A DNA stretch of 64,000 nt. Source: Prochlorococcus sp. AG-449-J16. GTDB lineage: Bacteria > Cyanobacteriota > Cyanobacteriia > PCC-6307 > Cyanobiaceae. The translations under genes were made by a program, and so were the position numbers. The stretch lies in the NCBI GenBank assembly GCA_003209565.1, contig QCQK01000002.1:1-64000 (forward strand), given 5' to 3'. The notes beneath the pieces were generated by a model. It worked only from the letters and a program-made list of their open reading frames with translations. It had not been told where the DNA came from and did no database searches. The stretch's first letter is position 1. Each line of letters starts with the position of its first letter. This document shows positions 7,378 to 23,680 of the stretch, in pieces.

Positions 7378-7393
7378 CGGAGGGGGTGGGATT
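7378..7393. repeat. Distal att-like copy of the tRNA-Ser 3' end
   Basis: Identical over 16 bp to 8645-8660. Confidence 0.75.
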
Positions 7394-8500: not shown

Positions 8501-8644
8501 TGATGAGGAAATATGAAAACAAATGAGAAAGTATGAGAAGGCTAAATTAAGTTTAATTATTGATATATCTCCTTTTTGGAAGCTTTAAAATAATTTTGAG
8601 AACATATGAGAAGGTATGGTAACTTCTGAGAATATGTCTTGGTA

Positions 8645-8731
8645 CGGAGGGGGTGGGATTCGAACCCACGGTGCCCTTGCAGACACGCTAGTTTTCAAGA
8701 CTAGAGCCTTAAACCACTCGACCACCCCTCC
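8645..8731 (-). tRNA. tRNA-Ser(UGA)
   Basis: Reverse complement GGAGGGGTGGTCGAGTGGTTTAAGGCTCTAGTCTTGAAAACTAG...GTGGGTTCGAATCCCACCCCCTCCG; anticodon TGA, long variable arm. Confidence 0.97.
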
Positions 8732-9018
8732 AGTTGGTGGCGAAATTTAAATAACTTTTAAATTCTAGCAGAAGGGTTAATCAAATCCGAAGAGTTTAAT
8801 TAGAAATAATTAAATAAAAATTTACATTGAATTGTTTCCAGTTTAATTAGGAGCCAAATATATTTTGAATCTTTGATTTAAGTTGTTTAAAGTTTATCTG
8901 AGAAAGAAAGACATCCAATAAAAAAAGGTATTAAATCTAATAAAAGCCTTTAATCTAGTTTTTGGGGCTTTTATATGTTAAAAATAAATATTACTTTTAT
9001 TAATTGAAAAAATAAAAA

Positions 9019-10571: not shown

Positions 10572-11143
10572 TTTAGGAAAGATTTTTTTTAAGAATTAAA
10601 TCATATTGAGGTTCTTTTTTTTATATTTTGTCAAACTTATTTTCTAAAAATATTGATTTTCATTTTTTTAGATATTTTGATTTCCTAAAGTTTTATGAAA
10701 AAAAGAATTTTAATTGCCCTTTATAAAATAATTTTTCTAAATAATTCTTCTAACAGAAAAGAAAATCTTAAGTTAAATAAAACTAAAAAATAAACTAATT
10801 AAGTTAACCTAACTTGTTAATTATTGAATGATATTTACAAGGCGCAAGTATTATCTTAATTAAAAGAAGTTTTAAATAATATAGCCTAAAATCATTTGAT
10901 CAATTCTCCAAAATGTTATTCGGTTTTAAACAACCAATTTCAATAGCAAAGTGAATTTAAAGTGCTAAAAGAGAGTTTTTGCCTTTTCATTTAGCTTTTT
11001 AGCTATAACTTCAATCTTTTATATCTGCTAGCAATTTATAGATAATTTTAGGCATAGTTTAAAGAAGATTCTGGAAAATATTTAGTAAATAATCTATAAA
11101 AAACATTAAGGCATTATAATTTTCTTAAAATTTTCAAAGTTAA

Positions 11144-11818
11144 TTGAAGAAATTTAGCTCACTTAAAAATTTATTTATAATCTTTGCAACTTCAGGATTA
11201 ACAATTTTTGGTACTTTTAATCGTCCCTTATACTCAATTCCTGAACCTATTACTGTTGCAGTTACAAAAGTACTTGATAGATCAAATGCCCCCTGGTTTA
11301 AAAAAAGTTTTGAAGATAAGTTCAAAACAATTCTTTCTACTGAACTTGCAAGTGCAGGCCACTTTATTGTTGTTGAGAGAGATCAAGAAGCATTAAAAGA
11401 ATTGCGAGCAGAATCAAGCTTATTTGAGGGTGAAGAAAATTTTAAAGAGATGGAATTATTAAAACCTAAATACATAATTAGAGCAGCTTTAAGTGACTAT
11501 GAAGATAATTATGTTTCCTTTGATCTGAAAGTTATAAACGCAAAAACTGCCGCAATAGCTTACAGCAGGTCTATTGAAGGTAATGTCTCAAATGTTTCAC
11601 AAAAGCAAAGTATAAAAATTAATAAAAATGACTTTAGCTTTAAAGAAGAGGTGGAGATCGTTAAAAAAACTGTTCCCTCAAGAGCTATCAGATCAGCTAT
11701 TAATGAAATAGCGGGATATTTAGATTGTGTTCTGTATCTAAAAGATGAATGCATAGCTGAATATGAGGCAAAGGAAGAAAGAAGGAAAAGAAGTAATGAT
11801 GCGCTTGACTTTTTCTAA
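11144..11818 (+). CDS. CsgG-family-like exported protein
   Basis: ITVAVTKVLDR...LSTELASAGHFIVVERDQ...KYIIRAALSDY...VINAKTAAIAYSRSIEG; signal peptide; TTG start. Confidence 0.75.
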   Translation: MKKFSSLKNLFIIFATSGLTIFGTFNRPLYSIPEPITVAVTKVLDRSNAPWFKKSFEDKFKTILSTELASAGHFIVVERDQEALKELRAESSLFEGEENFKEMELLKPKYIIRAALSDYEDNYVSFDLKVINAKTAAIAYSRSIEGNVSNVSQKQSIKINKNDFSFKEEVEIVKKTVPSRAIRSAINEIAGYLDCVLYLKDECIAEYEAKEERRKRSNDALDFF

Positions 11819-12202
11819 CTTTTAATCATTATCTTTAAACATCTTGTGAATTTATTTATATTTATATTTGACCTTTTTTATTCAAAAATAGGTAGTAATT
11901 GCAATCTCTTATCTATTTGTATTTATTATTTAGGATAACAAGGGCAGATCTACTTATCATTGGGAATTCCCAATTATGTAAATTACTAAATTTCTTTTTA
12001 AAATAAATCCCTTATCGATAATCTTTCTTATATTTCGATCAAACATGCATTATTGAATAAGTTTAATATTTTATGAAAAATTTTGGTTATTTAAATTTTT
12101 ATAAAGATAATTTAAAATTAAAGAAGGTATAAAATAATCTTTTTAGCTTAGATCTTTAGAATTGAAGATAAATGTTGCGAGTATAAGAAGCTGAGTATTT
12201 AG

Positions 12203-13075
12203 TTAGTAGGACCTAAACATATCAAATGCTTCTATTCTTTTAGCTTTTCTTTGTTCAATTTCTTTTACTCTGCTGAGTCTCTTGGCTTTGCTTTCTTTTG
12301 TTAAATCTTTCACTTTTTTGTTTTCACAAAAGGCAATTGTTTTAATCGCATCTGCATCAATTTTGTCAGCTATAACTTCATAATTCTCAAAAATTGAAAT
12401 TTCGTTAATAGTATTATCAACATATGCATTTAGTTCAGATATTACGGGTAAAGAGTCTTCATGCAATCCAGCAGCACATAAACCCATAATTCTTTCAGCT
12501 TTTCTTTCAACCTCTCTAGTGATTTTTCTGGAAAAACTCGGGCTTAAGCTGCTACCTGGTTTTCTTTTTTCTCCTAGATATAGACCTGTAGTTTTTCTCA
12601 ATGATAATTGCATTGCAGTAGCTTGACTCTCATCTTCAAGAATAAATAATAACTTCCTTGGTAAAAGATAATTATCTACATAATTTATAACGAATATATG
12701 TTCTCTTACTTTTTTTGATGTCGCATCAACTACCCATTTTGGTATTCCCTCTTTCTTTTTAAAGAATAAGAATCCTTTTGATTGTTCAGGAAAAAGACTT
12801 TGCCACTTTTCCAAATCCTGATTTACCTTAATAGTTTCTTTACTTGAAAGTGAAAAACTTTCAATCTGAGTAGGATAAATTCTTTCTTGAGGACCACCCT
12901 TTGGCATTATCGTTAGAATATCTTTATTAAAAAGTGCGTTACATTTCTCTCCAAATATATTTGATAGCAAAAATCCACATTTACCTTCATACAGTTGACT
13001 TCTAGCCAAAACTAAATTTGAAGGTAATAGAAAGCTTAAAATTATGTTTAGAAATATAAAATAATTTTTTGTCAT
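12203..13075 (-). CDS. Exported hypothetical protein
   Basis: 290-aa ORF with signal peptide; C-terminus KRIEAFDMFRSY. Confidence 0.6.
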   Translation of the reverse strand: MTKNYFIFLNIILSFLLPSNLVLARSQLYEGKCGFLLSNIFGEKCNALFNKDILTIMPKGGPQERIYPTQIESFSLSSKETIKVNQDLEKWQSLFPEQSKGFLFFKKKEGIPKWVVDATSKKVREHIFVINYVDNYLLPRKLLFILEDESQATAMQLSLRKTTGLYLGEKRKPGSSLSPSFSRKITREVERKAERIMGLCAAGLHEDSLPVISELNAYVDNTINEISIFENYEVIADKIDADAIKTIAFCENKKVKDLTKESKAKRLSRVKEIEQRKAKRIEAFDMFRSY

Positions 13076-13270
13076 TTAAAATTTCTTGAATAAAAAATTT
13101 CTTGTAATTTTTAATTATGCATAGAATATATATTTATATTACCTCAAATTAGTTTTTAATATTAACTCGGATTATCAAATTTTTTATTAAAACTTCTTAA
13201 GAAATATTTTTATAAATTAAGTAATTTTACCTCAATCTATTAAGTTTATAAGAAAATAGAATTTCTTTTT

Positions 13271-14068
13271 ATGAGAATTTCTTCGAAAATAATACATAAA
13301 GGTTTATTGGGATTGATAAATTTAATGTTTTTCATCCCTCCAAGCCCAGCATATTCTGAAGTTTCAAATCTTAAATTGAATGAGCCAGTGACAATTGCCG
13401 TTAGAAAATTTAAAAACTTTGCTGGCGATTTTGCTGAGAATGGAGTAATTGAAGGAGAAAATGGTGAAAAAATTAGGGTTGGTTTCTGGAAACCTTCTTT
13501 TGAAATTAAGCTTGCAGAAGTCTTAACTAATGAGCTAGCTAACACAGGACATTTTACAGTTGTTGAGAGGAATAATTTATATGAAGTTTTTGAAGAGCAG
13601 GCAATATCAGGTATTCAAAAAAATCTTACAAAAGCAAAATATATTGTTATTGCTTCTTTAAGCGACTATATACCTAACACAGCAGGTTCAAGATCTAACT
13701 CTGATGGACGTATCTTAATATTTAGAGCTGGTAATGATAGAACTCAGGTTGATACTTACGTTGCGGTTGATGTAAGAGTAATTAATACATCTACAGGCGC
13801 TATTGCATTAAGTAGAACTATTGAAGGAACTACTTCCTCTGTAGCCAAAGCAGATAGGTCTGGATTAGCGTTGGGTCTCATAGATACAACCTCAGAAAAG
13901 AAATCTTATGAAACCACCTCTGCAACAAGAGCACTTAGAGCTGCATTAATTAAAGTTGTAGATTACTTAGATTGCCATTTGTATCTTAAAGATGAGTGTA
14001 TTGCAGAATTTGAAGCGGAAGATGAAAGAAGAAAAAATTCAACTGAAGGAACATTAAATCTATTTTAA
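13271..14068 (+). CDS. CsgG-family-like exported protein (paralogue of 11144-11818)
   Basis: VTIAVRKFKNFAG...LTNELANTGHFTVVERNN...KYIVIASLSDY...VINTSTGAIALSRTIEG; LDCHLYLKDECIAEFEAEDERRK. Confidence 0.78.
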   Translation: MRISSKIIHKGLLGLINLMFFIPPSPAYSEVSNLKLNEPVTIAVRKFKNFAGDFAENGVIEGENGEKIRVGFWKPSFEIKLAEVLTNELANTGHFTVVERNNLYEVFEEQAISGIQKNLTKAKYIVIASLSDYIPNTAGSRSNSDGRILIFRAGNDRTQVDTYVAVDVRVINTSTGAIALSRTIEGTTSSVAKADRSGLALGLIDTTSEKKSYETTSATRALRAALIKVVDYLDCHLYLKDECIAEFEAEDERRKNSTEGTLNLF

Positions 14069-14070
14069 TT

Positions 14071-14925
14071 ATGAAAATTAAATTAAATCTAGCCATTTTA
14101 TTATCTACTGCTTCTTTACTTTTACTTCCAAACATTGATTTATTTGCATCAGAGTTAACTCAAAAAAAATCAAAACTTGAATTAATTGAAGAAGATTTAG
14201 AAAACTCAAGAAAAGATGTTTTATCTTCTAGACAATATTCCTTAAATAAGGATTTCTCTTCAGAACAATTAGATGTAGTAATTAGACCTTATCAATTATC
14301 TGCGGAACAATCTCCGGATTGGTGGTCTGAAAAACAATCATATGACATGTCATTTTTGTTAGTAAAAGCTTTAAATAATTATCCTGGTTTAAATGTTTCT
14401 TTAGAAAAAACTTGGGAGGAAAGGATTCTTGAAAAAGAAAACTTACTAATAAATAAAAAAGAATCATTAAACAATGATAAAAAGATAATTGTTACCCCAT
14501 TTTTAGAAGATTTTAAGTTTCAAGTCCTTAATCCGAAAAAAAGAGGAATCGGACTAGTTGTAATTTCTCTTAGTAGTAAGACTTGCATTAATGAAACATT
14601 CTTATCTACGAGATATGCATTTGATTTGCCTTCTGATTCAAATATTTTTATTGAAGATATTGAATCCAAACAACTATTAGTTAAAAAGAAAAGCGGATCA
14701 AGTCTAAATGCTAATCTTTTTTTTGTTAGTGCAGGGGGAGGTAAATTTAAGGCACCAGAAAAACCTGTAAAAGAGGTAGTTTATAATTCTGTAGTTGACT
14801 CTGCTGAGGGGTTATATTGTGCTTTAACTAATAAAGGAGATTGTCTTAAATACTATCAAGAAAGAGAGTATCAATTCCCTACTGTAGAAAAAAAGCGTAA
14901 AAAGAAAAAAGATAAATCTTGTTGA
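14071..14925 (+). CDS. Exported protein, probable divergent third CsgG-like paralogue
   Basis: Signal peptide; C-terminal VDSAEGLYCALTNKGDCLKYYQERE aligns to the LDCxLYLKDECIAEYEAKEER motif of its neighbours. Confidence 0.55.
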   Translation: MKIKLNLAILLSTASLLLLPNIDLFASELTQKKSKLELIEEDLENSRKDVLSSRQYSLNKDFSSEQLDVVIRPYQLSAEQSPDWWSEKQSYDMSFLLVKALNNYPGLNVSLEKTWEERILEKENLLINKKESLNNDKKIIVTPFLEDFKFQVLNPKKRGIGLVVISLSSKTCINETFLSTRYAFDLPSDSNIFIEDIESKQLLVKKKSGSSLNANLFFVSAGGGKFKAPEKPVKEVVYNSVVDSAEGLYCALTNKGDCLKYYQEREYQFPTVEKKRKKKKDKSC

Positions 14926-15269
14926 AATTTAATCTAGTTTTCAAGTAGTTAATACTAATTTTATTAATGTAAACTATATTGAAGAGTAATCAAATTAGAC
15001 CTCTTTCTCCTTTATATCTTCCCAATTGAAAATGGTCTTTAAGAAACATTCAAAAATACTTTAAAAATTAGCTACATATTGGAAATCCTATAGATCCATC
15101 CCATTATTATATTTTAAGTTTTAATTAGAAGTTAATTTTTTAGAATTAAGGAATTAAGGTACACTTTATATCGCCAAAAAAAGTGGGTTAATTAGAAATG
15201 GATAACATAAGGATTAGAGTAAAATAAAAATTCTATAAATTACAAAATCATCAAATTAGAATAAATATT

Positions 15270-15866
15270 TTATAAATTTATATTCTTTAAATTGTTTATA
15301 AATTCTTGAACAATATCTCGATAAATTACATATTCAATTAATTTAGGTCCAATAAAACAAACGCAAGCACCATAAAGTAAATCAATCTTAAGATAGGAGG
15401 AACCAAAATTAATTAAGTATATTAATAAAACTAGGGGGGTTATTGTTATTTGAGCAAATAACTTAAGTAAAAAATTCATGTCACTTTCACTAATATAACT
15501 CCAAATACTTAAACCATCACCTTTGCTGGGTATTGCATTCATTCCAATTGAAATAGAAATTATAAGGTTAAAAATGTCTTGCCAGTTTAAACTTATGATT
15601 CCTAATATTGAAAGTTTATTAATTATTGTAGGATAAGCAATTAAGCTTCCTATTAATGAATTGAGAAAAAAAGGAGCAGTTGCTATAAGCACATCTTGAT
15701 ACAAATGTTTTGGCCTTTCATGAAGTACATAGCCTGATGATTTCCTGAAATTGTAGTAGCAAACATCTTTTACTTTTGCGTTGAAAATTATACAAAAAAA
15801 GTGATGTGATAATTCATGGATTATTACACCTGGCATATAAAAAAGAGATCTTAATATTGCCTGCAT
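15270..15866 (-). CDS. HExxH membrane metallopeptidase-like protein (M50B-like)
   Basis: GVIIHELSHHFFCIIFNAKV plus multiple TM segments. Confidence 0.55.
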   Translation of the reverse strand: MQAILRSLFYMPGVIIHELSHHFFCIIFNAKVKDVCYYNFRKSSGYVLHERPKHLYQDVLIATAPFFLNSLIGSLIAYPTIINKLSILGIISLNWQDIFNLIISISIGMNAIPSKGDGLSIWSYISESDMNFLLKLFAQITITPLVLLIYLINFGSSYLKIDLLYGACVCFIGPKLIEYVIYRDIVQEFINNLKNINL

Positions 15867-15890
15867 TGCTTAATTAAAATTTATTTGTTA

Positions 15891-16049
15891 TTAATTTTTA
15901 TTTTTTATTCTGATATATGGCTTTTCAAATTTTGGGTCGCTTTGATGTTTATGATCTGCAAAGTGGGAAGGTAATTTATGAGCAAGAGAATAAGAAATAT
16001 TTAAAATATTAATTATCGAGAGAAGTTTAAGAAAAATAATAAGTTTCAT
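15891..16049 (-). CDS. Short exported His-containing peptide, hypothetical
   Basis: MKLIIFLKLLSIINILNISYSLAHKLPSHFADHKHQSDPKFEKPYIRIKNKN; signal peptide; absent from supplied ORF track. Confidence 0.4.
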   Translation of the reverse strand: MKLIIFLKLLSIINILNISYSLAHKLPSHFADHKHQSDPKFEKPYIRIKNKN

Positions 16050-16258
16050 ATGGTACGAGTCAAAAAAAATTGATTGAATTGATTAAATCTTTTAGAAACA
16101 TCATTCTGACGATTATCTTTTAAGATGTGAATCTCATAAAGATGCTTCTCTATGAGTAATTAGCAAATTAAGATTGCTCAATTGTAGTTACAAATACATG
16201 AAAATTTGACAAAAGATATTATTAAATTAGAGAATATTCATAAAATTTAATTGACATA

Positions 16259-16888
16259 GTGAAACTAAAAGGATTTTTGACAAGCCTCATAGCAGGTGCC
16301 TCTCTTCTTACAGCTAGTAATACGACCCCCGTACTAGCAGGAAGTTGTGAAAATGCTCCTGCTACTGGAACTGTTTTTAAGTGGACTGGTCCAGATACAT
16401 GGAAAATCATGACTACAGTTAGACAACCAATTACATCTGCTAACGAGCGTAAAGTAGCATTTGCTTACAAAAAGTTGGATCTAAAAGCTCAAAGGGAACT
16501 AGCAAGGTGGGTTGAAGTAAATGTAAAAAATGCATCTAGTTTGACTGAAGCCGAGAAGGCTAAATTTGTTGTAGACGCAAATGACGATGTTACGGAGGAC
16601 TCTCTTGAGGGGTTTGAAGAGTTTGTAGATACTTTTTCTAGTTCCACTGACGCACTTCTTGTTGGAATGATTAATCTTGGCGACTGTCATACTTTAGGTG
16701 AAGAAGTAAGATTAACTAAAGGAATAAATTCTGAGAATATAGTTGCGGCTCAAAGCATGAAAAATAAAAATTTTGGTGGAAGTACTGCAAGCACCAATGA
16801 CAGTAATAATTTAAGTTCGCCTACACAAACTTATAGAAGAGACCTTAATAAAGGTTATTCAGGTTATGGAAATCTAGATGACTTCTAA
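16259..16888 (+). CDS. Exported hypothetical protein
   Basis: Signal peptide (GTG start); C-terminus GYGNLDDF. Confidence 0.6.
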   Translation: MKLKGFLTSLIAGASLLTASNTTPVLAGSCENAPATGTVFKWTGPDTWKIMTTVRQPITSANERKVAFAYKKLDLKAQRELARWVEVNVKNASSLTEAEKAKFVVDANDDVTEDSLEGFEEFVDTFSSSTDALLVGMINLGDCHTLGEEVRLTKGINSENIVAAQSMKNKNFGGSTASTNDSNNLSSPTQTYRRDLNKGYSGYGNLDDF

Positions 16889-16909
16889 AATGATTTAAAA
16901 ACTTATGAT

Positions 16910-17089
16910 TCAATAGGTTGATGAACCTGATTCAAGTATGGTCTCTGTATCTTTTTCGATTTTCTCTTCTTTTGGAAGTTCTTTTATGAAATTTGTAATT
17001 GATTGAAGTCCCTCTAATGTATATGATCTAAAAGTTGAATTTGTGTAGAGTAAAAATATAACCAAAGCGGCTATTACAAAATTTCGCAT
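16910..17089 (-). CDS. Small exported/single-TM hypothetical protein
   Basis: 59-aa ORF MRNFVIAALVIFLLYTNSTFRSYTLEGLQSITNFIKELPKEEKIEKDTETILESGSSTY. Confidence 0.45.
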   Translation of the reverse strand: MRNFVIAALVIFLLYTNSTFRSYTLEGLQSITNFIKELPKEEKIEKDTETILESGSSTY

Positions 17090-17186
17090 AATTTCAAGAT
17101 TTATACTATTAATAATATAATTTTAGATTAATTAGTAGTTAATCTAAAAATTAATAATCAAACTATACAAAATTAAAATTCATTTT

Positions 17187-18059
17187 ATGAATATATTTGG
17201 CTTAATCTATTTATTTATATTACTAATTTCGGTTAATCAGGATTATATACACGCATCCAACTTTAAAAAAAAGTATCTAGATTTAACTTCTAAAAATAAA
17301 CATTTTTTAAACAGGACTTTATTAGTTCAAAATGATAATATCAAAACTATTGTTGTAACTGGTAAAGGAACATCAGAAGAAAAAGCTGCAATGAATGCTG
17401 CTCAAAATGCATTATTGATGGCTTCCCCTATGTATATAAAAAAAAGAAGAGTAAGTCTTTATAAAGAAACCTCTATTGATGGGGATTTAATTCCTGAAGA
17501 GAGTATTGATAGTTACAGAGAAAGTAGCTACGGGTTTAATCAAGGATCTATATTGTCATTTAAAGTAACTAAAACTTCTTTCAAGAATGGAGTGTATACC
17601 TTAGTCGCAGTTGCAAAGGTTAGTTATGGATTAAACAATCAAGAATTTCATCCATTATTTAAACCACCAGAAGTAAATACCAAAGAAATGGGAATTCAAA
17701 AAATATTCAAAATTGGGACTGGTCTTTCAGAAGAAGAGGCTATTGAAGATGCAATAGAACAAGCACTTCTTTTTGTAGTGGGAGAAAGAATAAATGTTCA
17801 GACTAATTTTAAAGAAATTGAACAACTTAATTACTTTATAGATAATTCGATAGCAAAAGAAGATTTTTATACTAAAGAAACTTTAGATGATTTAACTAGT
17901 GGATATAGTGAGGGTTACATTGAATCATTCAAAAAATTAAATTCATTTAAAGAAGATGGTTTGTATAAAGTAGAAGCAGATATAGTTGTTAGAAGAAAAA
18001 CTTTTTCTTCCTATATTGACGAAAAATTAAGCCCAACAGGTATAAGAATTAATGATTAA
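17187..18059 (+). CDS. Exported protein with two LPP20/FlgT-like domains
   Basis: VVTGKGTSEEKAAMNAAQNALLMA...VAKV and FKIGTGLSEEEAIEDAIEQALLFVVGERINVQT...VEADIVVRR. Confidence 0.5.
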   Translation: MNIFGLIYLFILLISVNQDYIHASNFKKKYLDLTSKNKHFLNRTLLVQNDNIKTIVVTGKGTSEEKAAMNAAQNALLMASPMYIKKRRVSLYKETSIDGDLIPEESIDSYRESSYGFNQGSILSFKVTKTSFKNGVYTLVAVAKVSYGLNNQEFHPLFKPPEVNTKEMGIQKIFKIGTGLSEEEAIEDAIEQALLFVVGERINVQTNFKEIEQLNYFIDNSIAKEDFYTKETLDDLTSGYSEGYIESFKKLNSFKEDGLYKVEADIVVRRKTFSSYIDEKLSPTGIRIND

Positions 18060-18083
18060 AGATAATAAAACGAACATCTATTT

Positions 18084-19097
18084 ATGAAATTTATAATTAA
18101 AAATTCAATTAGATATATAATTTTTCTTCTTATTGCAAGTTCATTTTTAGATTTTCTAAAAAATGATAATCTAAGTTTAAAAACTTTAGCATCTGATAAT
18201 ACAGGCGTTGATATAAATTTTGGAGATTCAATAGGAGTAAATCAAAATATTAAGAATTTAAAAAATAGGAAAAAAATTTATGAAAAAGAAATTATTGAGA
18301 AAGTTAAGGGAGGTATGGCTATAGATCCAAGAATGGGTAAAGCAATTTTTGGAATAAATAGTTTTTTCAGCGAGGATTATTGTAGAGAAATTGGAGAGTA
18401 TTCCATTATTGGAACAGTACCCTATCCTACGTGGTGCAATAGAGATAGTGGCCCTTTCAGCAATGTGGATAATCCAAACAGTGTAATTATTATTCCTCTA
18501 ACTCTTGAATTGAAAGCTGGATTTAAAGAGAATCTAATAGACACATTGTCTGATGGTCTCGAAGCTGATTATATAGGGGTGATAAAAGGATCTAGTCATA
18601 CCCCAACAAAACTTACAGGGCCAGATTTTAAATTCGGCCAAGATCAATTATTAGGGATTGTAGATCACTCTAAAAAACTGATGTTGTTATATCAAATAAA
18701 TGACGCTGGAATTTATCAAAAAAATCAATTAAATAAATTTATAAAAGGAAGCTCCTATGTTCTCGCAATTGATTTAATTAATAAAAAAGGAGAAATAGAT
18801 GGAGGTGTTTCATTTACTGAGAATAAAAAATCTTGTGTAAACCATTTTAAAAACTGCCTTTTAAATAACATTCATTTAATGGAGTATCAAGTCAAAAACC
18901 ATTCTCCTGAGATTATTAATGACAAAAATTGGGGTATTACAACTGGGAAAATATCTCCTCCCCATGCACTTTTAGAGGATTATGGTAGTTTCCAAAAAAT
19001 ATTCTTAAGTAGAAATTATTATGTGATGATTGATATTAATGAGAAACAATTAAAAAAACTTTCTAGAATTAATGTTAGAAAGATTACCAATGAATAG
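18084..19097 (+). CDS. Exported hypothetical protein
   Basis: 337-aa ORF with N-terminal hydrophobic segment; 25 bp after the previous gene. Confidence 0.55.
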   Translation: MKFIIKNSIRYIIFLLIASSFLDFLKNDNLSLKTLASDNTGVDINFGDSIGVNQNIKNLKNRKKIYEKEIIEKVKGGMAIDPRMGKAIFGINSFFSEDYCREIGEYSIIGTVPYPTWCNRDSGPFSNVDNPNSVIIIPLTLELKAGFKENLIDTLSDGLEADYIGVIKGSSHTPTKLTGPDFKFGQDQLLGIVDHSKKLMLLYQINDAGIYQKNQLNKFIKGSSYVLAIDLINKKGEIDGGVSFTENKKSCVNHFKNCLLNNIHLMEYQVKNHSPEIINDKNWGITTGKISPPHALLEDYGSFQKIFLSRNYYVMIDINEKQLKKLSRINVRKITNE

Positions 19098-19530
19098 TTT
19101 TACATTTCTTAGAAAATATATTTTTATTCTATTGATGATTAACTTTGTAAATACTTCTGTTCTTGGAGAAGAAAGTAATTGTTTAAATTATCCCTATCCA
19201 GATGGTATATACTTTAAAAATAAATTTAGTAATAAAAAACAATTAATTTATACCCAATCAGGATCCATTCAAAGTAAAAATATAAAAAAAATAGAATTTT
19301 TTAAAAAGAAAAATAATTTATATGCCATCTCTTCTTTAAATAAATATATAAAAATTCATTTCCCAAATTTGGAGGAAGGGGATATTGGAATTTATAACTT
19401 ATATTCTTGCTTTGATAGCGATGGTACTTATAAGATATCTTATGCTCAAAGAAATGTTAACTTGAAGAACATGAATATTTTTCAAAAAGTAAAAAACTTT
19501 ATGGATAAGAAATTTTTCAATGATTTATAA
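19090..19530 (+). CDS. Exported hypothetical protein
   Basis: In-frame ATG at 19090 gives a clean signal peptide MNSFTFLRKYIFILLMINFVNTSVLG; overlaps previous stop. Confidence 0.5.
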   Translation: MNSFTFLRKYIFILLMINFVNTSVLGEESNCLNYPYPDGIYFKNKFSNKKQLIYTQSGSIQSKNIKKIEFFKKKNNLYAISSLNKYIKIHFPNLEEGDIGIYNLYSCFDSDGTYKISYAQRNVNLKNMNIFQKVKNFMDKKFFNDL

Positions 19531-19764
19531 CTCTAATTGTTCAGAAATAAATTTTTTTATGTAGAAACTATTTAAGCAATTTAAAAAAAACATTAATTTT
19601 TAAAATATTTTTGTGTGGTAATTTAATGTTTTAATAAAATTAATCAATATAGCTAATAGAAACAGGGTGCTTTTCTATAAAATTTTTTTGATAAAATTTT
19701 CTCAAGTATAATTTATTTTAAATTGAACAAGACTACATTTTTAATTTTTTAAATCTGAAAGTTT

Positions 19765-21393
19765 ATGAAATTTATCTCGAAAGCTTTTTTAATAACATTT
19801 CTTATTTTTTTTTCTAATAATTTTTTAGAGGCAGTTGAAATAAATTGCTCATTGCCAGTCAACAAAAATAAAGCAATATGTAAAGGTAAATTAAAAAATG
19901 AAGTTAAATTTAATCCCAAAGAACTTATAGAAAAAGTTACTGTCTCAATAGTTGGAATAAATGGAGATAAGCAGCCTGGCTCAGGCGTAATTGTAAAAAA
20001 AGAAAATAATATTTACAGTGTTTTAACAGCTGCTCATGTTGTTTGTGGTTTAAGCAACCAATCTTTTGATACTTCAGAATTTGAGGTAATAACATTTGAT
20101 GATTTAGTACATGATTCATATGGAGAATCAAATTTGAATGTTAAATGCCCTCCAATTTTAAAAGGGCAAAAAAAAATGAATAGTTCATTTTGCAGCGCAT
20201 CAATTAGTAAAGCTTATCCATGGCCAATAGATCTTGCAGTTTTAGAGTTCAAATCAGATAAAGAATATTTAGTAGCTAAAAGACCAAGTTCAATAAGACG
20301 ATTCGGTAGTGATGTTTATGTTTCTGGCTATCCAATATCTCAAGATGGAAAATTTGTTATAAGAGAAAGTCAGGGTACTGTAGATTTACCACCATCATCT
20401 ATCAATGAAACTTGTAAAGGTTATGGCCTCAGATATATTGTTCAAACTGAAATTGGCATGGACGGTGGAGGAGTTTGGTCAAAAAAGGGAAAATTAGTTG
20501 GTATTCACGGTTATCGTGAAGTTAGTAGAGGCGATAATATTGTATTAAATCGAGGAAGTTATGGAACTGGAATTCATATTCCATATTGGAAACAATTAGT
20601 TGATCCATTTGATCCTTCTAAAGGGTTCCCAGAAAATTTAAAAAAATACGACAGTGAAGATGATGCATCAGCATATATAAGTAGAGCCAAGGCATTTATA
20701 AATATTGCAAGGTCTGAAAAAGTTAATAATAATCCTAATTTTCTAATAGAAGAAGCTTCTACTCCTATATTGGAGGACTTAAAAAAAGCAGAAAAGATAG
20801 ATAGCAAACGACCATTAATTCCAGCATTGATAGCCCAAATTTATATTCGTAGATATGAAGATGGATCTAAACAAAAAAAATATTTAACTGAGGCTCTTAA
20901 AAATATTAATAGGGCCATTATTCTACAAAATCCTAACTGGTTAGGGCCCAAGGCCTCTTTTGATGGAAGTTTTGAGGCGATAAGAGCTTATATTCATTTT
21001 TTATATGGTGAATTTATTAACAATAGCGATTCTATTTTGTCTTATCGTTATGCCATAGCAGATATAGAGACTAGGTTGTCTTTAAAACCTGATGATGTGG
21101 AATCCTGGAAAGATAAAGCAAAATATCAGTTTTTTGCGAAACAATTAGGAGAAGCTTATGCTTCACTTATAAAAGCTTCAAAACTAGCGCCAAATGACCC
21201 AAGTATTTATATTGATATGGGAATTATATTAGCTACAAATGAAGAATATGGAAAAGCATGTAAAGACTTCAATAGAGCTAGTAAACTTATTGATGAGGGA
21301 TTATCAAGACAAGGCAAACAAGGTGCATTTGCTAAAGATTATAAACAACAAATGACTCGCATCAAACCATGGAAAGACTACTTAGGTTGTTAA
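19765..21393 (+). CDS. Exported trypsin-fold + TPR protein, probable catalytically dead serine protease
   Basis: SGVIVKKENNIYSVLTAAHVV (His), DLAVLEF (Asp), but QTEIGMDGGGVWSKKGKLVGIHG has Asp where G-x-S-G-G is expected; C-terminal TPR-like repeats. Confidence 0.75.
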   Translation: MKFISKAFLITFLIFFSNNFLEAVEINCSLPVNKNKAICKGKLKNEVKFNPKELIEKVTVSIVGINGDKQPGSGVIVKKENNIYSVLTAAHVVCGLSNQSFDTSEFEVITFDDLVHDSYGESNLNVKCPPILKGQKKMNSSFCSASISKAYPWPIDLAVLEFKSDKEYLVAKRPSSIRRFGSDVYVSGYPISQDGKFVIRESQGTVDLPPSSINETCKGYGLRYIVQTEIGMDGGGVWSKKGKLVGIHGYREVSRGDNIVLNRGSYGTGIHIPYWKQLVDPFDPSKGFPENLKKYDSEDDASAYISRAKAFINIARSEKVNNNPNFLIEEASTPILEDLKKAEKIDSKRPLIPALIAQIYIRRYEDGSKQKKYLTEALKNINRAIILQNPNWLGPKASFDGSFEAIRAYIHFLYGEFINNSDSILSYRYAIADIETRLSLKPDDVESWKDKAKYQFFAKQLGEAYASLIKASKLAPNDPSIYIDMGIILATNEEYGKACKDFNRASKLIDEGLSRQGKQGAFAKDYKQQMTRIKPWKDYLGC

Positions 21394-21509
21394 AAAATAA
21401 ATTTTTTTTAGTGTTTATTAAGTAAAAATTTATTCAAACATAATTTAAATACACTTGACCAAAAGTTCATTGATAAGCAAATATATTAAAATAATCCATA
21501 AAAAAAATA

Positions 21510-21938
21510 ATGGCTCGTTCACTATTAGCTTCGGCCTCATATGTTTTACTCATTGGAACATTAGGAATTGGTGAGGCATTTGCATTCGGAGTACCGAAAA
21601 TTCCTGGTGGAGGTCAACTCCCAGGACTTGGCGGAGGAGGCGGTGGCACGAATGCCATTACTGACAAGGCAAAAACAAAAGCTGCAAAAACTATTTTGAA
21701 GGATGTTGGCAAAATTGCGTTTAGAGGAGGAAAGATTGTTGCATCAAAACAAAAATGGGCATGTGATAAACTTGGAAAAGCTCAAAAGATTGTAGTAGCA
21801 ATTAACAATGCTGATCTTTTAGAACAAGTTTCTGATTTACGTGAAACATTATATTGTGGTCTAACAGATCCTATTCCGGCAGAATTACTAGCACCTGAGG
21901 AAATCAAAGGTGATGAGAAGGAGAATTTTGCATCTTAG
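21510..21938 (+). CDS. Exported Gly-rich hypothetical protein
   Basis: Signal peptide; PGGGQLPGLGGGGGG. Confidence 0.55.
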   Translation: MARSLLASASYVLLIGTLGIGEAFAFGVPKIPGGGQLPGLGGGGGGTNAITDKAKTKAAKTILKDVGKIAFRGGKIVASKQKWACDKLGKAQKIVVAINNADLLEQVSDLRETLYCGLTDPIPAELLAPEEIKGDEKENFAS

Positions 21939-22018
21939 ATTAAATGCTCTAAATTTTAATGATATTTTTAAAATTTCAGGCTAATTAATAAGCTTAGTTT
22001 AAAACACTAGATTAATAT

Positions 22019-22789
22019 TTATTGGTAGCAGTTTGCTTTTCTAATTAAGCTTGCTCCTCCACCAATAGGTCCTGGTTTTGGTGCCATCCATTCACCTGAA
22101 GTAGGAGTGCTTAATTTTCTAAATACGGAACTAAGATTAGTTTTACAGCTAACAGCAATCCATCCATAATCAGACTTTTGTTCATTAAATGGGTTCTTTC
22201 TTAATGATTGCTTTTTTTGATAAAAGTATGCAGCTAAAATATAACCATCTTTCTTTTTTATATTCGAATTATATTTAAACTCGCTGGAGTTATTTTTATA
22301 TAAAGTAATCCAATCCCCTTGATGATTTGAAGCTGGATATGAAGGTTTTTCGATATCCCATAGGTATTTAGTTGCTGATGTATAACCCCAAACTGATGCC
22401 GCAGCTGTATTTTTACAGTAGAATTGAGCTACCTCTTCAAAGCTTGTTCCTTTTTCAAGGCTATTCCAAGTACCTCTTTGAGACATTTCTTTTCTTTTTC
22501 TTAGATAGTAATCCTTATTTCGACAATTAATATCTAAACGACCAAGAATTTGTTTATTTCCTTCTACAAGTTTCATCTGCATTCTAAATGAATCATTATT
22601 TAGCGTCTTATAACTTAAGAGATTTATCCATTGTGTGATATTTCCATAATTATCAACCCCAACTGGATGCCACTCAAAAGTATTTTTTTTTGCTAATAAT
22701 TTTTCACTTAAGCTTAAATTGTGAAAAAGTAAAAAACTAAATAGAGATAATAATTTAATATAAAAAATTTTCACTTTAAAAGTTCTCAT
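22019..22789 (-). CDS. Exported protein, possibly surface-adhesin-E-like
   Basis: W..V..DNYGNITQWINLLSYK...FRMQMKLVEGNKQILGRLDINCRNKDY arrangement; signal peptide. Confidence 0.4.
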   Translation of the reverse strand: MRTFKVKIFYIKLLSLFSFLLFHNLSLSEKLLAKKNTFEWHPVGVDNYGNITQWINLLSYKTLNNDSFRMQMKLVEGNKQILGRLDINCRNKDYYLRKRKEMSQRGTWNSLEKGTSFEEVAQFYCKNTAAASVWGYTSATKYLWDIEKPSYPASNHQGDWITLYKNNSSEFKYNSNIKKKDGYILAAYFYQKKQSLRKNPFNEQKSDYGWIAVSCKTNLSSVFRKLSTPTSGEWMAPKPGPIGGGASLIRKANCYQ

Positions 22790-23272: not shown

Positions 23273-23374
23273 CTAGCTTGTATAAGCTTTGCCTCTGTAA
23301 GTTAGTTGATTATGCTGTTTCTTGGCTGCTTCTTTGTTTTGGACGTACTTTTGTCCCCTGTAAATTAGAGTCAT
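23273..23374 (-). CDS. DUF4278-like small protein
   Basis: MTLIYRGQKYVQNKEAAKKQHNQLTYRGKAYTS (33 aa); LxYRGxxY motifs. Confidence 0.75.
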   Translation of the reverse strand: MTLIYRGQKYVQNKEAAKKQHNQLTYRGKAYTS

Positions 23375-23680
23375 TTTTTAAGCTCCGGTTTCGCTTAAGT
23401 CCCCGTTCCATGGCTTAAGTCGATTTGCGGCTTGCTATACGCAAGTTGAACGTTTTGGTAGCGGTTGCTACAGTTTGATAATAACATTCAAGGAAATTAT
23501 TTGTCTAGGTCTTTAATAAATAAACTTAATACTTCAAAAATAAAATAAACTCTATTAAAGGAATTGATTTTTTTCTCTATAGTAGTTTCTTTGCAGGTTA
23601 CATTTTGTTCGTTTTTGAGAAGTATTTTTTATTTAATGAACTTTTAAATGTAAAATTCTTAAGATTATAAAATTTGTTTT

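Follow-up and report, generated by a model that had tools for sequence, protein, structure and literature searches.

Twelve genes (g1 to g12, named in order) were counted between positions 11144 and 22789 of a 64,000-nucleotide stretch of Prochlorococcus sp. AG-449-J16 (GenBank assembly GCA_003209565.1, contig QCQK01000002.1, positions 1 to 64,000; here called the window). Comparison with relatives indicates that this block almost certainly consists of two separate cassettes, inherited independently of each other, which encode exported proteins and are under selection: cassette A (g1, g2, g3, and g4; 11144..14925) and cassette B (g6-g7-g8-g9-g10-g11 and the convergent g12; 16259..22789). The window genome comprises 1.32 Mb in 52 contigs and is 81% complete. 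Prochlorococcus is home to the orthologous loci (single-cell genomes, AH-716-J09, and P. marinus MIT 9107). Cassette genes were counted in a family sample of 201 genomes and across the genus (195 genomes for g2, the marker of cassette A, and 190 for split g7/g8). A simple hydropathy count, which is not a signal-peptide prediction, found a single hydrophobic N-terminal segment and no second transmembrane (TM)-like segment in 11 of the 12 proteins, and g5 is a membrane protein, in agreement with the original prediction that nearly every gene encodes a signal peptide or TM segment. That prediction had taken the genes as one contiguous block; the 12 exported or membrane protein genes do lie side by side, but relatives carrying A and B apart rule out a single contiguous 12-gene system. 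Pfam assigned g1 and g3 to CsgG and g10 to a trypsin-like fold with tetratricopeptide repeats (TPRs), placed g5 near the M50 zincins below cut-off, and gave no credible family for any other block protein.

Cassette A was defined by DNA homology, which ends nearly alike in MIT 9107 (positions 11084-14929 of the window, at an unrelated locus there), and by the lack of g5 to g12 at the AH-716-J09 site (homology to 11099-14959, same site as in the window). Between nrdJ and tRNA-Ser, AH-716-J09 carries g4-g3, g2-g2b, and g1, with none of g5 to g12, and in MIT 9107 the five cassette A genes lie beside transporter and urease-type genes (labels from our reading of the open reading frames [ORFs]). These are the two named genomes with cassette A intact, including g2b, an exported-protein gene and CsgG partner. 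Loss of g2b from the window left no trace: relatives carry the gene (L060:10880-11674, L061:4521-5315) where the window has a gap (11819..12202), and tblastn found no remnant between g1 and g2. The g2 marker was detected in 4/195 genus genomes, two of which (AH-716-J09 and G067) had no detected cassette B. In G067, very large repeat proteins (764 and 1,929 amino acids; L038:52-8618) are encoded directly upstream of the CsgG genes and are a possible candidate for an exported substrate.

Three CsgG-related proteins had been predicted, and all three were recovered. Both g1 (11144..11818, + strand; E 1.2e-13, 51 bits) and g3 (13271..14068, +; E 1.7e-24, 87 bits) pass the curated PF03783 cut-off of 20.8, while g4 (14071..14925, +), a divergent CsgG-like gene always straight after g3, has no Pfam match and was assigned by hhalign only (probability 95% and P 2.7e-8 against the CsgG profile). 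The g3-g4 tandem recurs at five further loci (L035, L036, L037, L060, and L061). Alignment suggests that g3 has an enlarged loop and the two hairpin segments; the hairpin 1 segment was aligned, and hairpin 2 could not be aligned by sequence to Escherichia coli CsgG. The first hairpin segment is missing from g1, as it is from the g1 of AH-716-J09, MIT 9107, and the closest relatives, so that a full CsgG barrel is probably impossible for this protein. Foldseek searches with a low-confidence g3 model returned CsgG (E 8e-10), FlgT (2e-6), the Vibrio LPHT ring (9e-6), and PelC (2.5e-5), all of them envelope ring proteins. The exported partner g2 (12203..13075, −) is conserved beside CsgG at six loci (L036, L038, L039, L041, L060, and L061), and its model (predicted local distance difference test [pLDDT], 75) comprises a predicted PH-like beta domain plus helices, for which a fold search of PDB returned PH/PTB-like matches only, none significant.

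Cassette B was defined by the occurrence of g6 to g12, without cassette A alongside, as a colinear seven-gene set in five other genomes of the genus (L079, L080, L081, L082, and L083/L084, the last split over two contigs of G273). It occupies the nrdJ site in G309 (together with g5), G377, MIT 9107 (= G333), and G273, and lies on a contig with tRNA-Ser in G271. The split g7/g8 form of the cassette was found in 6/190 genus genomes, and four of these six carriers (G309, G377, G271, and G273) had no detected cassette A. Family-wide searches had made g10, g11, and g12 appear nearly unique to the window genome, which denser sampling of the genus overturned.

The original prediction had described a duplicated LPP20/FlgT-like protein, and the duplication was found in g7 (17187..18059, +), whose domain copies span residues 51-146 and 169-277. 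Copies of this domain type matched LPP20 in 9/14 cases (best E, 2.7e-5) and FlgT_N in 5/14 (best E, 0.0021), weakly throughout. By profile-profile comparison, g7 is the N-terminal part of fusion proteins whose C-terminal half is g8 (18084..19097, +; hhalign P 1e-17). A second, fused gene of this type lies on contig C20 of the window genome (L056:5911-7200), and G259 has g7-g8 type matches on four contigs. Between the putative helix and second strand, g7 and its relatives carry a segment of 30 to 40 residues; a recent flagellar-motor structure links an insert at that point of the fold to ring formation (PMC12222027), and to judge from sequence the g7 segment may occupy the position of this ring-linked insert in LPP20/FlgT_N-type folds. 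The small secreted protein g6 (16259..16888, +) ends in DF, has a Ser/Asn/Gly-rich tail, and has homologues adjoining g7-g8 genes in other genera, and g9 (19072..19530, +) is its paralogue (hhalign P 8.6e-8). The g7-g8 fusions, the g6/g9 paralogy, and the g2b partner gene had escaped the original prediction. An LPP20 fold for g6, hinted at by its apparent layout only, was rejected after a probability of 4.5% against the g7 profile and a PDB search that returned nothing relevant.

Downstream, g10 (19765..21393, +) had been predicted to be a pseudoprotease with TPRs. Its trypsin-like fold (Pfam Trypsin_2, E 5e-11) and TPRs stand; His91 and Asp156 are invariant, and at the Ser position the window and three relatives have Asp but two others have Ser, so that some family members probably lost catalysis while the protein remained under selection. 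The highly conserved exported protein g11 (21510..21938, +; 75-87% identity, dN/dS [nonsynonymous to synonymous divergence] 0.08-0.14), described beforehand as Gly-rich, has a short N-terminal Gly run but is Gly-rich nowhere else. An adhesin-E-like label for the exported protein g12 (22019..22789, −) found no support, as a Pfam search with a limit of E=1 returned nothing; the gene is kept in all B cassettes. An aromatic last residue was observed in 11/12 CsgG, 5/5 g2, and 6/6 cassette B g6 proteins, against 18% of background ORFs, and is perhaps a sorting or docking signal shared by the g1, g2, g3, and g6 families.

In the window genome, both cassettes occupy a hypervariable site bounded by tRNA-Ser(UGA) (8644..8732, −), its left landmark, and nrdJ; in different genomes the same site holds A alone, B alone, or both. 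By simple pairwise counts, dS against relatives was ~0.5-1.2 for most cassette genes (higher for g6) and 0.1-0.5 for flanking genes, as expected if the cassettes move between strains, and dN/dS was 0.07-0.35 for each of the 12 genes, which denotes purifying selection. The site resembles the tRNA-flanked flexible genomic islands of marine bacteria in its variable content beside a tRNA and in cassettes more divergent than their flanks. Unlike such islands, it had no recognized integrase, its cassettes are not bounded by an attachment repeat, and the only short tRNA-end repeat lies across the tRNA from them. This 16-base exact repeat (7378-7393), which is the tRNA-Ser end minus its final base, is located ~1.25 kb past the tRNA 3' end and resembles an attachment-site scar. 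The idea that the cassettes had integrated at the 3' end of the tRNA was rejected, as the sole tRNA-end repeat is on the side opposite them.

The original prediction could be checked by co-conservation, which proved strong inside each cassette but weak between A and B. Within the family sample, g6 was present in 7/7 g7-positive genomes, and g2 and g7 occurred together in three genomes (P=5e-4, or P=0.007 without the window genome); in the genus, two genomes had both the g2 marker and split g7/g8 (P=0.005, uncorrected for kinship or genome incompleteness). Three loci in other genomes bring CsgG and B-type genes together. In L045 and L086, a g7-g8 fusion gene followed by g6 faces a CsgG gene in convergent orientation, at a distance of ~45 and ~30 bp, respectively, and L086 also carries a g12 homologue beside its CsgG gene; in L036, two g7-g8 fusion genes, g6, g3, g4, g2, and g2b lie inside 10 kb. 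A CsgG gene that adjoins B-type genes or lies within 10 kb of them at three loci supports a shared A/B function, which stays unproven.

We give a probability of roughly 50% to the reading that the cassettes encode an accessory outer-membrane ring or pore assembly, for export or anchoring. Cassette A would produce a CsgG-type outer-membrane assembly, with g3 probably as its beta-barrel ring and with g1, lacking the first hairpin, and g4 probably either capping the barrel or forming CsgG-fold rings that lack a complete one; g2, and g2b where present, would be exported partners of this assembly. In cassette B, g7 with g8 would probably polymerize into a ring scaffold beneath the outer membrane, g6 and g9 would be two small secreted proteins, g10 would be a protease-fold/TPR protein with its nucleophile lost here, and g11 and g12 would be further exported proteins. 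The assembly would likely serve in the export or anchoring of some component of the cell surface, by a logic like that of curli CsgG, PelC, and the flagellar H-ring. The CsgG assignment, the fold matches of the low-confidence g3 model, the domain likeness of g7 and its possible ring-linked segment, the cassette limits, the A/B linkage, dN/dS, and co-occurrence speak for a ring assembly; its oligomerization, membrane insertion, joint action, and substrate are what we infer.

The nearest known systems each match in part. Curli CsgG (PF03783; PDB 4uv3 and 6l7a) shares its family with g1 and g3 and, as far as alignment suggests, its hairpin segments with g3, and was the best Foldseek match of the low-confidence g3 model; cassette A differs in having three CsgG-like genes, with no hairpin 1 in g1, and unrelated partners (g2 and g2b). 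The Vibrio H-ring (FlgO/FlgP/FlgT), Campylobacter FlgP, and Helicobacter pylori Lpp20 have in common with the block the combination of a CsgG/TolB-like fold and LPP20/FlgT_N-like domains, and FlgT and the LPHT ring were among the matches of that same model. In contrast to them, the g7 domain is in tandem and joined to the unrelated g8 half, and no flagellar gene was recognized in the block (the rest of the genome was not searched). PelC, whose fold the g3 model also resembles, offers a precedent for a related ring without its own barrel, a possible parallel to g1 and g4, but none of the Pel genes was seen in the cassettes.

Several results weigh against this assembly. No export substrate was identified. 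The g3 model was built from eight sequences at low confidence (mean pLDDT, 55) and represents a monomer. E. coli CsgG is a lipoprotein according to PDB titles, and the N-terminal regions of g1 and g3 have no Cys and lack the lipobox, in which they differ from both CsgG and PelC. The LPP20/FlgT_N scores of full-length g7 fall under the curated Pfam cut-offs, and a short double-stranded-RNA-binding-motif match scores about equal to them. No CsgG match was found in three g7-positive genomes of the family sample (G136, G039, and G078), and A and B are apart in most carriers.

It is a real possibility that A and B are functionally unrelated and side by side at a hotspot, with A serving CsgG-type export and B a periplasmic or surface scaffold. 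Cassette A without B in AH-716-J09 and G067, cassette B without detected A in G309, G377, G271, and G273, and the separate loci of A and B in MIT 9107 all fit this explanation, while CsgG genes that adjoin g7-g8/g6 genes in L045 and L086 and lie near them in L036, together with A/B co-occurrence above chance, speak against it. That linkage is in turn weakened by the CsgG of L045 and L086, a subtype other than g1 and g3, by the incompleteness of several carriers, and by P values not corrected for kinship. It is possible, but less likely than separate action, that A and B form one previously undescribed outer-membrane machine, in which a ring scaffold made of tandem LPP20/FlgT-like g7-g8 units bears or encloses a heteromeric CsgG-fold pore (g1, g3, and g4). 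In that case g6, g9, g11, and g12 would be secreted or cap components, and an open-ocean cyanobacterium would carry the cassettes as swappable modules.

Export of an unrecognized amyloid by a divergent secretion system of the curli type (type VIII) would account for CsgG homologues with hairpin segments and for the Ser/Asn/Gly-rich tail of g6, but is improbable. As predicted, the block contains no curli subunit homologue, with no match to the Pfam curlin repeat, CsgE, or CsgF and no CsgA/B among its 12 proteins (the rest of the genome was not searched for CsgE, CsgF, or CsgA), and PF03783 also matches many non-curli paralogues (PMC3521004); CsgE and CsgF are, for their part, missing from some curli systems (PMC3521004). 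Less probable still is that cassette A is a PelC-like ring for polysaccharide export: in the periplasm, PelC assembles into a 12-fold ring seated on the PelB barrel (PMC12141448) and the low-confidence g3 model also resembles it, but the CsgG similarity is stronger and neither a Pel-type synthase nor a Pel-type porin was recognized among the cassette proteins.

An undescribed envelope system had been proposed, and a CsgG core without curli genes in the block fits that proposal, but not as one system. In the open-access literature (preprints and most subscription papers lay outside its scope), we found no match describing such Prochlorococcus loci or a combination of CsgG with LPP20. In a genome as small as that of Prochlorococcus, 10 kb of accessory genes for exported proteins, kept under purifying selection, probably repay their cost. 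Should the cassettes encode an outer-membrane pore or ring assembly, they would confer an uncommon cell-surface trait, gained, lost, and swapped among strains, that might affect grazing, phage attachment, or aggregation. MIT 9107, as a named P. marinus strain with both cassettes at separate loci, makes their separate roles testable.

Among other candidates, a viral origin was rejected since this CsgG type had no relative in IMG/VR and one weak PHROG match (g3), and a defence system was rejected since PADLOC gave no match; promoter and terminator scans were at chance level. Between the cassettes, g5 (15270..15866, −) encodes the predicted HExxH (HELSHH) membrane protein, M50/DUF3267-like below the Pfam cut-off, and its 75% identical homologue lies beside cassette B only in L079. 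A conserved 59-amino-acid ORF with one predicted TM segment (16910..17089, −) lies on the opposite strand between g6 and g7, and L079, L080, and L082 have similar ORFs in the corresponding position. Near g6/g7 genes elsewhere, a family of small exported proteins is encoded (L050:11808, L053:11419, L054:11978, L051:413, and L063:9339); four of its five members have a glycine-zipper-like tail, and the fifth adjoins g2. Just beyond cassette B lies a Glutamine-II riboswitch (23394-23455, −), followed by a 33-amino-acid ORF (23273-23374).

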